A stretch of DNA of 36,728 nt. It comes from Flavobacteriales bacterium. GTDB lineage: Bacteria; Bacteroidota; Bacteroidia; Flavobacteriales_D; Crocinitomicaceae. The stretch covers positions 1 through 36,728 of the forward strand of contig JADFAL010000085.1 of NCBI GenBank assembly GCA_015665275.1. The letters run 5' to 3'. A model generated the notes under the pieces. That model worked only from the letters and a program-made list of their open reading frames with translations, was not told where the DNA came from and made no database searches. Below, in pieces: positions 28,801-32,988 of the stretch (positions are counted from its first letter, which is position 1; each line of letters starts with the position of its first letter). Made by a program: the position numbers and the translations under genes.

Positions 28801-29772
28801 TTAGTTGTTGATACTCTCAAGAAGAGACGAAATATCTTGTTTCAACATACAATCAAAATGTTTTTTTGGACAGGTTTCCGATCCAATTTTAGAGCATGGG
28901 CGGCATTTCACGCCTTCCACTTGATGAATGGAATAGTTCTTCTGCTTGGGTTGATACGGGTACATTCCAAAATCAGGAACCGTATTTCCCCAAACGGTAG
29001 ACATTGGAACATCAAAACAACTTGCAATATGCATCATTCCGGTATCGTGCGTAATTAAATGCTTTGATTGCTTCACCAAACTGGCCGATTGCTGCAAATT
29101 TAATAGCCCAACAGTTGATACGATTTCCTTATCCAAGCCGGAAATAATACTTTTCGCTTTCCCTTGATCGGTTGGCCCTCCCACTAAAACAACAGTATCT
29201 TCTATTCCTTGAATTAGCTCAATCAATTTCTCGACCGGCAGACATTTAGTTGCGTGTTGCGCACCAATGGCAATCGCCACAAATCGCTTTGCTTCCAAAT
29301 TCCAATCGGATAAATTGACCTCATTTTCGGATTGAATAATAAAATCACCCGGTTTGCCATCTGGTTGTACTCCCAAATGCGCAACGGTTTCGAAATAGCG
29401 ATCTACGACATGAATTTCAGGCAATTTATTGATCTTGGCATTCACTAGCAGCCATTTCTCCCAGTTCAATTTTCGGAACGTTTTCGATGGGCGTCTCAGT
29501 TTCGATTTCAGGCCTTTTGTACGAATGTTATTGTGCAAATCGATAATCCAATCGTACTGTTCCGCTTTCAATTCTGTTAGCACCTCATCTATGGATTTCT
29601 CAATTGAAAACACCTTCGAAACATTCGGATTCGGTGCGACTATCGACTTAAAAGAGACTTTGGTGAGATAGTGAATTTCCACCTCCTTCAACTGTGCTTT
29701 CATGGCACGAATAATTGGTGTCGTTAGGACAACGTCGCCTATAGAACTAAATCGAACAATGAGGATTTTCAC
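28801..29772 (-). CDS. Glycosyltransferase family 9 (heptosyltransferase-like)
   Basis: The 323-residue protein begins MKILIVRFSSIGDVVLTTP, the classic N-terminus of ADP-heptose:LPS heptosyltransferases, and carries DWIIDLHNNIRTK, ATKCLPVEKLIELI, VVLVGGPTDQGKA and the nucleotide-sugar-binding HDTGMMHIASCFDVPM. It most likely adds a heptose or related sugar to the lipopolysaccharide core on the cytoplasmic face of the inner membrane. The start codon is GTG. A TATCTTTG -7 element lies only four bases upstream, so the transcript may be leaderless or a different promoter is used. It is followed by the decayed small membrane-protein gene. Confidence 0.92.
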   Translation of the reverse strand: MKILIVRFSSIGDVVLTTPIIRAMKAQLKEVEIHYLTKVSFKSIVAPNPNVSKVFSIEKSIDEVLTELKAEQYDWIIDLHNNIRTKGLKSKLRRPSKTFRKLNWEKWLLVNAKINKLPEIHVVDRYFETVAHLGVQPDGKPGDFIIQSENEVNLSDWNLEAKRFVAIAIGAQHATKCLPVEKLIELIQGIEDTVVLVGGPTDQGKAKSIISGLDKEIVSTVGLLNLQQSASLVKQSKHLITHDTGMMHIASCFDVPMSTVWGNTVPDFGMYPYQPKQKNYSIHQVEGVKCRPCSKIGSETCPKKHFDCMLKQDISSLLESINN

Positions 29773-29981: not shown

Positions 29982-32552
29982 ATGGAACAGAATCTAATTT
30001 ACATACTACCAGCGTTTGGAGTTATTGGATTGCTTTATATGCTTTTCCTTTCCTCATGGGTTAAGAAACAATCTGCGGGAAGTGAAAAAATGAAGAAATT
30101 GTCTGGTTACATCGCTGATGGAGCCTTGGCATTCTTGAAAGCAGAATACCGCATGCTTGCAATCTTTGTAGTCATTGCCGGTGGAGCGTTGGCTGTACTG
30201 TCTGCTATGGAACTTATTCCTGCGGGAATGTTCATCGTTGTAGCATTTGTTATCGGAGCAGTTTTCTCTGCAGTAGCTGGTAACATTGGTATGCGAATCG
30301 CAACAAAAGCAAACGTTAGAACAGCTGAAGCAGCTAAGACCAGTCTTCCAAATGCCATGAAAGTTGCCTTTAGAGGTGGTACTGTAATGGGATTGGGTGT
30401 TGCCGGTTTGGCCGTATTTGGATTGTCGACCATCTTCATCTTCCTATTAATGGATGCTGGAGGAATTAATGAAGTTCGAGGTGAGAAAATGATTGTTGTT
30501 CTTGAAACATTGGCTGGGTTCTCACTAGGTGCTGAGTGTATCGCACTTTTCGCACGTGTAGGTGGAGGTATCTATACGAAAGCTGCCGATGTTGGAGCTG
30601 ACCTTGTAGGTAAAGTAGAGGCTGGTATTCCAGAAGATGATCCACGTAACCCTGCAACGATTGCTGATAACGTAGGTGATAACGTAGGTGACGTTGCCGG
30701 AATGGGGGCTGACTTGTTCGGTTCATACGTAGCAACAATGCTTGCGGCAATGGTACTAGGTAACTACCTTTTCATCCAAGATCCTACAGCTTTTGTAAAG
30801 TTCGACGGATTGGGACCTATCCTAATGCCAGTTCTTATCGCTGGAATTGGATTGATTTTCTCTATCGTTGGTACTTGGGTAATCCGTATTAGTAGCAACG
30901 ACGCAAAAGAAAAGCAAGTTCAAGGTGCATTTAACCTTGGGAACTGGGGATCATTGATCTTAACAGCGATTGCATCTTTCTTTGTGATCAAATGGATGCT
31001 TCCTGAAACAATGACCATGGACTTCTTCGGTGAAGAACCAAAAGAAATTGGATACAACCGCGTATTTTACTCTGTATTGATTGGATTGGCCGTTGGAGGT
31101 TTGATCTCTATGTTGACAGAATACTACACAGCAATGGGGAAACGTCCAGTAATGGGAATCATTAAAAACTCATCTACTGGAGCAGCAACAAACATTATTT
31201 CTGGATTGTCTCTAGGAATGATGTCAACTGCAGCGCCTATCATCCTTTTCGCTGGTGCGATTTGGGGAGCATACGCTTGTGCAGGATTTTACGGAGTAGC
31301 AATTGGAGCCTCAGCAATGATGGCCACAACAGCACTTCAATTGGCGATTGACGCATTCGGACCAATTGCAGATAATGCAGGAGGTATTGCTGAGATGTCA
31401 GAATTGGATCCAGAGGTACGTGAGCGTACAGATATTTTGGATGCTGTAGGTAACACTACTGCTGCGGTTGGAAAAGGATTCGCGATTGCTTCTGCTGCAT
31501 TGACAGCATTGGCATTGTTTGCAGCCTATGTAACATTTACAGGAATTGACGGAATTAACATCTTCAAAGCAGACGTATTGGCTGCCTTGTTTATCGGTGG
31601 TATGATTCCAGTTGTGTTCTCTGCAATGGCTATGAGTTCAGTTGGTAAAGCTGCCATGGCCATGGTGAAAGAAGTGCGTCGCCAGTTCAAGGAAATCCCT
31701 GGAATTATGGAAGGGGAAGCTGAGCCAGAATACGAAAAGTGTGTAGACATTTCTACGAAGGCTGCCTTGAAAGAAATGATGTTGCCAGGTATCATCACTA
31801 TTGTTTCTCCAATCATTATTGGATTTGTGATGGGAGCTGAAGCACTTGGAGCATTTATGGCGGGTGTAACCGTTTCAGGTGTACTTTGGGCAATCTTCCA
31901 GAACAACGCAGGAGGTGCTTGGGATAACGCTAAGAAATCTTTCGAAGCAGGAGTTATGATTGACGGAGAAATGACCTACAAAGGTTCTGAGGCGCATAAA
32001 GCAGCAGTAACTGGAGATACAGTTGGAGATCCATTCAAAGATACTTCTGGTCCTTCCATGAACATTTTGATCAAATTGACTTGTTTGGTAGGGTTGGTAA
32101 TTGCGCCAATGTTAGCAGTAGGAGATGGTGGTCACGGTTCTAATGGAGCAGCTGGTCATCAAACAGAATGCTGCGCTGAAGAAGGTGGTAAGCACTGCAA
32201 GAAAGATGCACACTGTGACAAAGAAGCTCACGGAAAGAAAGCTTGTTGCAAAGCAGATAAAAGCTGTAAGAAAGATGCCTATTGTAAGTCTGGTGCTTCA
32301 TGCAAGAAAGACGCAATGTGTGGAAAATGCGACATGAGCAAGATGAAGGACATGACGAAAGACGAGTGTGCTGCATATTGCAAAGAGCAAGGATGTTCTC
32401 AAGAATGTACTGATGCTTGTTTGGCGCATTACGGTGAAGACGGAAAGTTCAAATGTGAAAGCGGGAAATGCGGACACGGAAAATGTGAAGAAGGTAAGTG
32501 CGCTGAAGGTAAATGTGCCGGTGGTAGTGCTAAAGAAGAAAAAGCGGGTTAG
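29982..32552 (+). CDS. hppA: Membrane-bound pyrophosphatase (K+-dependent type) with a Cys-rich C-terminal tail
   Basis: The protein uses pyrophosphate hydrolysis to pump Na+ and/or H+ out of the cytoplasm. It has 856 residues from the ATG at 29982, chosen over an upstream codon inside the promoter. The integral-membrane core (about 1-713) has the catalytic blocks [11 protein letters not shown] (about 203-213) and [31 protein letters not shown] at about 490 carries Ala494 where K+-independent pumps have Lys, so it is the K+-dependent type. Residues 714-856 form a hydrophilic tail with 21 cysteines, including three CKKDA-x-C units (x = H, Y, M), a spaced C-x3-C-x4-C-x3-C-x3-C block and four GKC units. 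I know of no such tail in standard pumps of this family. In the solved family structures the C-terminus faces the periplasm. A strong terminator follows. Confidence 0.95.
32121..32549 (+). repeat. Cys/Lys-rich repeat region in the pyrophosphatase tail
   Basis: This in-frame segment encodes the 143-residue tail. CKKDAHC, CKKDAYC and CKKDAMC recur in its first half. [15 protein letters not shown] and AEGKC are tandem units at the end. The middle block, [20 protein letters not shown], has evenly spaced cysteines. Histidines are present near the start. The composition suggests metal binding or redox chemistry. Confidence 0.85.
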
Positions 32553-32577: not shown

Positions 32578-32609
32578 AAAAAAAGGGCTGTGTAACACAG
32601 CCCTTTTTT
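32578..32609. terminator. Bidirectional terminator between the pyrophosphatase and thioredoxin genes
   Basis: GGGCTGTG and CACAGCCC form a perfect 8-bp stem around TAA, flanked by seven As on one side and six Ts on the other. It can end both convergent transcripts. Confidence 0.93.
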
Positions 32610-32628: not shown

Positions 32629-32988
32629 TTAACCGAGTAATTCCTTACTGATGATCTCCTTAAATGCACCTTTCGGTAAAGCACCCGCTTGCATCATTGG
32701 TTGTTTATCACCCATTGGAATAAACAACAAACTAGGGATGCTGCGAATTCCAAAAACCGACGCAAGCTCCCGCTCTACTTCGGTGTCAACCTTATAAATC
32801 TTCAATTTCCCTTCGTATTCCTCCGAAAGTTCCTCTAAAATGGGCGCAACCGCTTTACACGGCCCACACCAATCCGCATAAAAATCAATAATCGCTGGGA
32901 CGGAATCTTCGTACTTCCAATCCTCGTTGATTTCGTAATTGAAAATGTCTTGCTTGAATTTATCTGCTGTTAACTTAATTGTTGCCAT
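32629..32988 (-). CDS. Thioredoxin
   Basis: The 119-residue cytoplasmic disulfide reductase has the active site WCGPC (Trp40 to Cys44) in IIDFYADWCGPCKAVAPIL and the cis-proline in IRSIPSLLFI. The N-terminus is slightly longer than in E. coli thioredoxin (MATIKLTADKFKQDIFNYEI), as in many Bacteroidota. There is no signal peptide, so it is not one of the exported thiol-disulfide proteins. It is encoded convergently with the pyrophosphatase whose tail carries 21 cysteines; any functional link is speculative because the two are predicted to face different compartments. Confidence 0.94.
   Translation of the reverse strand: MATIKLTADKFKQDIFNYEINEDWKYEDSVPAIIDFYADWCGPCKAVAPILEELSEEYEGKLKIYKVDTEVERELASVFGIRSIPSLLFIPMGDKQPMMQAGALPKGAFKEIISKELLG

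Follow-up and report, generated by a model that had tools for sequence, protein, structure and literature searches.

Membrane-bound pyrophosphatases (M-PPases) are usually regarded as compact pumps of 16 helices. A semi-conserved Glu at helix position 5.43 marks the Flavobacterium johnsoniae subclass of H+-pumping pyrophosphatases (H+-PPases), according to passages in PMC10897367 and one row of a table in PMC6882861. We analyzed a stretch of 36,728 nucleotides from a Flavobacteriales bacterium of the Crocinitomicaceae (contig JADFAL010000085.1; the whole stretch is called the window), in which an M-PPase gene continues in frame beyond the pump into a long cysteine-rich tail. The first-pass annotation had singled out this tail; its observation was confirmed and its interpretation was partly supported. 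Genomes are denoted below by G numbers (G000 is the source genome) and loci by L numbers.

A conserved cysteine-rich extension of the pump

The M-PPase of the window carries a real, conserved and modular Cys-rich extension at its C-terminus. The pump part belonged to the M-PPase family, as PF03030 matched residues 14-707 over its whole length (profile 1-645 of 645, E 3.6e-260, Pfam) and the catalytic segment was present in the translation; it was the single M-PPase match in G000. The longest open frame of the same gene started upstream at a TTG (29952). When aligned to the V. radiata enzyme (5gpj), Glu185 (codon 30534-30536) was located in helix 5 opposite a Ser, and both helix-6 positions lacked Glu; helix numbers (5.43, helix 6) were mapped onto the window pump by us. 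GAE was found at the helix-5 site in all 172 of the partly overlapping loci in which the motif could be located. By its Glu 5.43, as mapped here, the window pump groups with the F. johnsoniae-type H+-PPases. Beyond it, residues 714-856 (143 amino acids) contained 21 Cys, placed between residues 730 and 845, and 7 His, confirming the first count from the open frame; the Cys content of exported-like and cytoplasmic-like proteins sampled from G000 was 0.82-1.10%. The three CKKDA-x-C units and the four terminal GKC units, all four within the last 31 residues, were also confirmed, and a fifth GKC was found in a CGKC at 780-783. The DNA of the window tail showed no tandem array. Solved M-PPases matching the window had only 8-21 residues beyond the matched part.

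In the family search of the tail no model reached its cut-off: the one Pfam match, DUF5817_CT (E 0.13), scored 12.6 bits where 29 were required, and NCBIfam had no match. A hidden Markov model (HMM) recovered a conserved core in the relatives. This core is a helical hairpin of 43 residues, usually with six Cys. Among 165 unique cores, Cys was kept at C1 in 151 of 151 non-gap cases, at C6 in 143, at C14 in 163, at C18 in 165, at C23 in 164 and at C31 in 165; M9 was kept in 157, and position 34 was His in 117 and Met in 28. All replacements of C6 were hydrophobic (14 Met, 3 Leu, 3 Val, 1 Phe, 1 Ile), suggesting that this residue is probably buried. Of these 22 losses, 14 occurred alone, six with a gap at C1 and two with loss of C14; C1 and C23 were lost jointly once. 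When the core alone was modeled with AlphaFold2, a two-helix hairpin after a short helical turn was predicted (mean predicted local distance difference test score, pLDDT, 83; predicted template modeling score 0.59), and no significant match to it was found among solved folds in the PDB. Most of the tail besides the core had a pLDDT below 50, with the linker largely predicted to be disordered. In the window core (Cys at 783, 796, 800, 805, 809, 813 and 825), Met788 stands in place of the usual C6 and Cys809 is extra (core position 27); both features were shared with G020 and G025. Purifying selection on the window core was seen in comparison with G025 (83% amino acid identity; 15 differences at codon position 3 versus 4 at positions 1-2) and G020 (14 versus 7), and the signal was not clear against G008, which has a tail of another type (27 versus 24).

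Tails could be read in 29 of the 34 genomes of the genus (30 tails), and 27 of the 29 had an in-frame, Cys-rich M-PPase tail with 9-21 Cys. The tail was thus lineage-conserved, and the concerns that it might be confined to one assembly, be set apart from the pump by a frameshift or be a mis-joined gene were not borne out. Four of the remaining five genomes had no M-PPase match and one had only a 32%-identical match; the pumps of G001 and G023, from the same genus, lacked the tail. With the core HMM, 27 of the 34 genomes were positive, 26 on the M-PPase and one (G001) in a separate lipoprotein-like gene. The core was present in 63 of 299 genomes of the order sample. In 61 of them it lay in the M-PPase frame; in the other two (G090 and G123) it stood alone, in a protein whose N-terminus is hydrophobic and whose end is rich in His; the N-termini of the stand-alone copies were judged by eye. 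In all three genomes carrying a stand-alone core, the M-PPase tail had no Cys. Of 253 matches to the core pattern in a scan of named genomes, 243 were confirmed. The best 80 comprised 78 M-PPases (76 with the anchor motif, two cut by contig ends) and the stand-alone genes of G090 and G123. M-PPases of Flavobacterium and of further Bacteroidia bore the core as well, and named carriers included Flavobacterium alvei, F. cauense, F. fontis, F. saliperosum, F. fluvii and metagenome-assembled genomes of Crocinitomicaceae. In the phylum sample it occurred in 16 of 395 genomes, every time in a frame of M-PPase size (HMM of alignment A3); its frequency varied with sample and HMM, being 22 of 89 among class tails with an iterated HMM. 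One core alignment omitted some cores, e.g., that of G029 and the two of G022.

Three further observations concern tail diversity. In many Flavobacterium M-PPases (L149-L239), one more small region, of the type VRVEVKNINGKTTGTVTKTENGKTTTEVFEGTEEEVLAKVEAAK, closed the tail. A member of another family of the order (L038) had a Cys-rich M-PPase tail of a different kind, with CKPGCTKACC repeats and perhaps of independent origin. G022 had two partial M-PPase genes (L048, L036), one with a double core and the other with its tail cut by the contig end.

Modules at the pump C-terminus and their cysteine spacing

The pump was found in 140 of 149 genomes of the class sample. Ninety of the 140 tails were read (30 plus 60 in similarity rank order, the rank of G339 being skipped and the least similar pumps left out), and one cut by a contig end was dropped. 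The other 89 comprised 22 with the core, 16 otherwise Cys-rich (38 Cys-rich in total), 14 YceI-like, two OmpA, one FKBP and 34 short tails. The YceI-like tails were called by motif and came from many Bacteroidia families (L245, L246, L247, L272, L273, L275, L276, L281, L293, L294, L301, L302, L305, L329); seven of the 14 were submitted to Pfam and all seven were confirmed. Together with two OmpA-type domains and one FKBP_N/FKBP_C isomerase (L251, L298, L312), this made 10 of the 17 long, Cys-poor tails of these types submitted and confirmed. No description of M-PPases with such Cys-rich, YceI, OmpA or FKBP modules was found in the open-access literature searched, a scope outside which most subscription papers lie.

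Proteins with YceI, OmpA or FKBP_N/FKBP_C domains are typically located in the envelope, and the M-PPase C-terminus in these relatives is therefore taken to be periplasmic. From these fusions at the same site, and from the lipoprotein-like or hydrophobic N-termini of the stand-alone copies, we strongly infer a periplasmic location for the Cys-rich extension, on the outside of the inner membrane, the side that had been assigned to it in the first place. Placing modules on the M-PPase C-terminus is a habit found across Bacteroidia, and this end of the pump has the look of a docking site in the periplasm. If it is such a mount for exchangeable parts, the pump may have further roles in the envelope.

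C-x-C and C-x2-C are the usual soft-metal chelates, and both were nearly banned from the tails. The 218 variable segments examined held 1081 Cys; in them, C-x-C was seen twice (112 expected) and C-x2-C four times (109 expected), while CC was seen 196 times (115 expected) and C-x5-C to C-x7-C 171-192 times each (94-100 expected). Expectations were taken from composition shuffles, related tails are not independent of one another, and the counts were repeated on class tails. The avoidance held in all 38 Cys-rich class tails (C-x-C 2 versus 68 expected, C-x2-C 5 versus 66) and in the 16 core-less ones (1 and 2, versus 17 each). C-x7-C was enriched in both class sets (139 versus 64 in the 38 tails, cores included; 35 versus 16 in the core-less tails). 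The enrichment of CC was less general (60 versus 66.6 in the 38 tails, cores included; 29 versus 17.7 in the 16), and C-x5-C was not enriched in either class set. No avoidance was observed in the proteins of G000, neither in cytoplasmic-like ones (C-x-C 9 versus 7.7 expected, C-x2-C 30 versus 7.8) nor in exported-like ones (6 versus 4.7 and 10 versus 4.8), in a control that covered 400 kb plus the window (genome, 3.64 Mb) and relied on a crude prediction of export. This is an unusual sequence rule, to be explained by any mechanism. It argues against tight bidentate chelation, heme attachment (C-x2-C-H) and a thioredoxin-like active site. It also argues against a usual metallothionein, a candidate that was rejected: the window tail had no C-x-C and no metallothionein model matched, so the label "metallothionein-like" given by the first-pass annotation did not hold.

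A mosaic-like gene and its neighbors

For residues 1-200 and 201-400, respectively, the window pump was 84-90% and 81-88% identical to eight clade-A relatives; the values for G020 and G025 were 64-65% and 68-69%. The core showed the reverse, with 79-83% identity to G020/G025 and 49-63% to clade A, and the part after it was nearest to the ends of the same two genomes (68-76%; at most 44% for the others among 20 genus M-PPases compared). Informative sites changed from clade A to clade B between residues ~640 and 780. Both flanking genes, compared over short flanks, had their best match in G020/G025 among 22 loci. The convergent neighbor, which we take from its WCGPCK motif to encode a thioredoxin-like protein, had a counterpart in the same position in G020 and G025 (86-89% identical). 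The divergent neighbor, presumably encoding a glycosyltransferase-9-like (heptosyltransferase-like) protein, was 79-84% identical in these genomes; identity was lower in six other loci (50-61%), and a further locus gave 70% over only 50 residues. The gene thus has a mosaic look, joining a clade-A pump to a clade-B tail and lying between clade-B flanking genes. Probably, then, recombination brought in a new pump body and left the tail in place, or else the assembly is chimeric; misassembly could be the cause, but two joins would be required. The terminator that had been annotated directly after the gene corresponded to a hairpin and T run (Table 1), which a simple terminator scan missed.

Table 1. 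Positions of the M-PPase gene, its parts and adjoining features in the window
Feature	Position (strand)	Remarks	Basis
M-PPase with C-terminal extension	29982..32552 (+), stop included	856 aa, ATG start	Open frame, PF03030
Pump part, residues 1-713	29982..32120 (+)		Alignment to 5gpj; LGAECIALF motif
Variable Cys/Lys-rich linker, residues 714-782	32121..32327 (+)	10 Cys, three CKKDA-x-C units; differs between relatives	
Conserved core hairpin, residues 783-825	32328..32456 (+)		HMM match, E 3.4e-21
C-terminal part, residues 826-856	32457..32549 (+)	Four GKC units	
Terminator-like hairpin and T run	32578..32609 (+)	~25 nt past stop	Minimum free energy -24.3 kcal/mol, z-score -7.4
Convergent neighbor	32629..32988 (-)	No obvious signal peptide (by eye)	Translation with WCGPCK
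Divergent neighbor	28801..29772 (-)		Translation

Possible roles of the tail and described systems

The mechanism we choose, tentatively and at somewhat less than an even chance, is a pump-tethered polythiol. The extension would loosely hold or buffer soft metal ions (Cu(I), Zn(II) or similar) at the outer face of the inner membrane, with the pump acting chiefly as an anchor; chelate-tight spacings (C-x-C, C-x2-C) would have been selected against, so that metal is held reversibly. This reading is favored by the metal-like composition of the variable parts (Cys 11%, Lys 16%, His 4%, Met 5%), the His-rich ends of two stand-alone copies, and core position 34, mostly His and in some cores Met. Conservation, the periplasmic side and the one-or-other pattern, in which a stand-alone core goes with a Cys-free M-PPase tail, point the same way. 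Nor do the Cys numbers plainly indicate an oxidized fold: of 142 non-redundant tails, 78 have an even and 64 an odd number (p 0.28), and the exported-like proteins of G000 show no even-number bias either (46 even, 45 odd; crude prediction). G000 was also searched for DsbB and VKOR and matched neither; DsbB was found in one and VKOR in three of the 60 genomes searched. Several points weigh against metal buffering. The usual soft-metal chelates are almost absent, also from the 16 core-less class tails; a metal ligand set in the tail would be hypothetical; and the hydrophobic replacements of C6 fit a buried residue as well as a ligand. The tail-bearing G008 is among the VKOR carriers, and no metal-handling gene was seen beside the M-PPase or the stand-alone copies in the translations read, with no family search made on these neighbors. 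Cytoplasmic-like proteins of G000 were 61 even and 83 odd in Cys number, so that even numbers are a little commoner among the exported-like ones (46 of 91 versus 61 of 144), a hint of some disulfides.

The last point equally serves a close rival ranking just behind the metal buffer, namely that the tail is a disulfide-stapled mini-domain used as a periplasmic interaction or cross-linking module, perhaps joining the pump to other envelope proteins; we regard this as possible but doubtful. Some disulfide-rich mini-proteins avoid C-x-C and C-x2-C, as these tails do, and C14, C18, C23 and C31 hardly vary (Cys in 163-165 of 165 cores). The double losses of C6 with C14 (two cores) and of C1 with C23 (one) are what paired cysteines might leave, but 14 of the 22 C6 losses stand alone. 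Functional periplasmic disulfides are made in F. johnsoniae (SprF-GldK; an excerpt of PMC12635249), which supports stapling and counts against the metal buffer. The lack of an even-number bias in the tails, the rarity of DsbB and VKOR and the absence of a significant fold match for the hairpin speak against stapling. An unlikely account, compatible with the metal buffer as best explanation, is that unrelated periplasmic modules are merely carried or anchored by the M-PPase, uncoupled from pumping. The variety of modules at one site (or little at all, 34 of 89 tails being short), the clade-A pump joined to a clade-B tail and the existence of stand-alone cores agree with it; however, the core is nearly confined to M-PPases (three stand-alone genes versus every other match seen), and mere carriage accounts for the location and not for the Cys. 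That near-exclusive pairing with one pump family is also what a regulatory tail, gating the pump as periplasmic metal or redox state alters it, would lead one to expect. We consider gating very unlikely, given a pump and tail that appear recombined in the window gene, the tail-less pumps of G001 and G023, and a linker that is long and largely predicted to be disordered.

The least credible alternative, which we disfavor strongly, is modification of the EGKC repeats to thiooxazoles by an MNIO enzyme, as in bufferins/oxazolins. The window tail ends in four GKC units, of which three are EGKC or SGKC, and Buf-EGKCG precursors are known (a passage of PMC12452194). Against this, PF05114 had no match in G000 (96% complete), G020 and G025, the genomes sharing the window M-PPase end, and its occurrence in nine of 60 genomes included the tail-bearing G003, G005 and G018, whose tails lack the repeat. 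Separately, lipoprotein-like proteins with EEGKC-type repeats were observed in G018, G020 and G025 (L052:956-1315, L053, L056), next to a gene that we take to be gluconate-2-dehydrogenase-subunit-3-like; the MNIO gene of G018 was on a contig other than that of its EEGKC-repeat locus.

A wider scheme, decidedly unlikely in our estimate, is that the pyrophosphate-driven pump also serves as a metal or thiol station of the periplasm: the tail would sense or buffer soft metals and metal or thiol loading would feed back on pumping, coupling cytoplasmic pyrophosphate energy to envelope metal homeostasis, with the dock refitted elsewhere in Bacteroidia with YceI, OmpA or FKBP for other envelope tasks. 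Tail-less sisters, stand-alone copies and the apparent pump/tail mosaic provide natural controls for a role of a primary pump in metal or thiol handling.

Metallothioneins are short, rich in Cys and Lys and poor in aromatics. The window tail shares these traits but, besides lacking C-x-C and any model match, has a helical hairpin and is fused to a membrane pump. The YceI, OmpA and FKBP fusions found in this study occupy the same position on the same pump, with known domains where the window gene has a polythiol. One short sequence stretch of the pump is much like the V. radiata enzyme. Bufferins and EGKCG oxazolins are likewise exported, Cys-rich, copper-binding peptides, some with EGKC repeats and some membrane-anchored (as described in a passage of PMC12452194), whereas the window tail is fused to a pump and the MNIO enzyme was not matched in its genome. 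With the K+-dependent H+-PPase subclass of F. johnsoniae, the window pump shares its full length, the helix-5 Glu (E185) and a helix 6 without Glu. It differs in adding a Cys-rich extension of 143 residues, and the portions of PMC10897367 and PMC6882861 consulted mention no C-terminal extension in that subclass.
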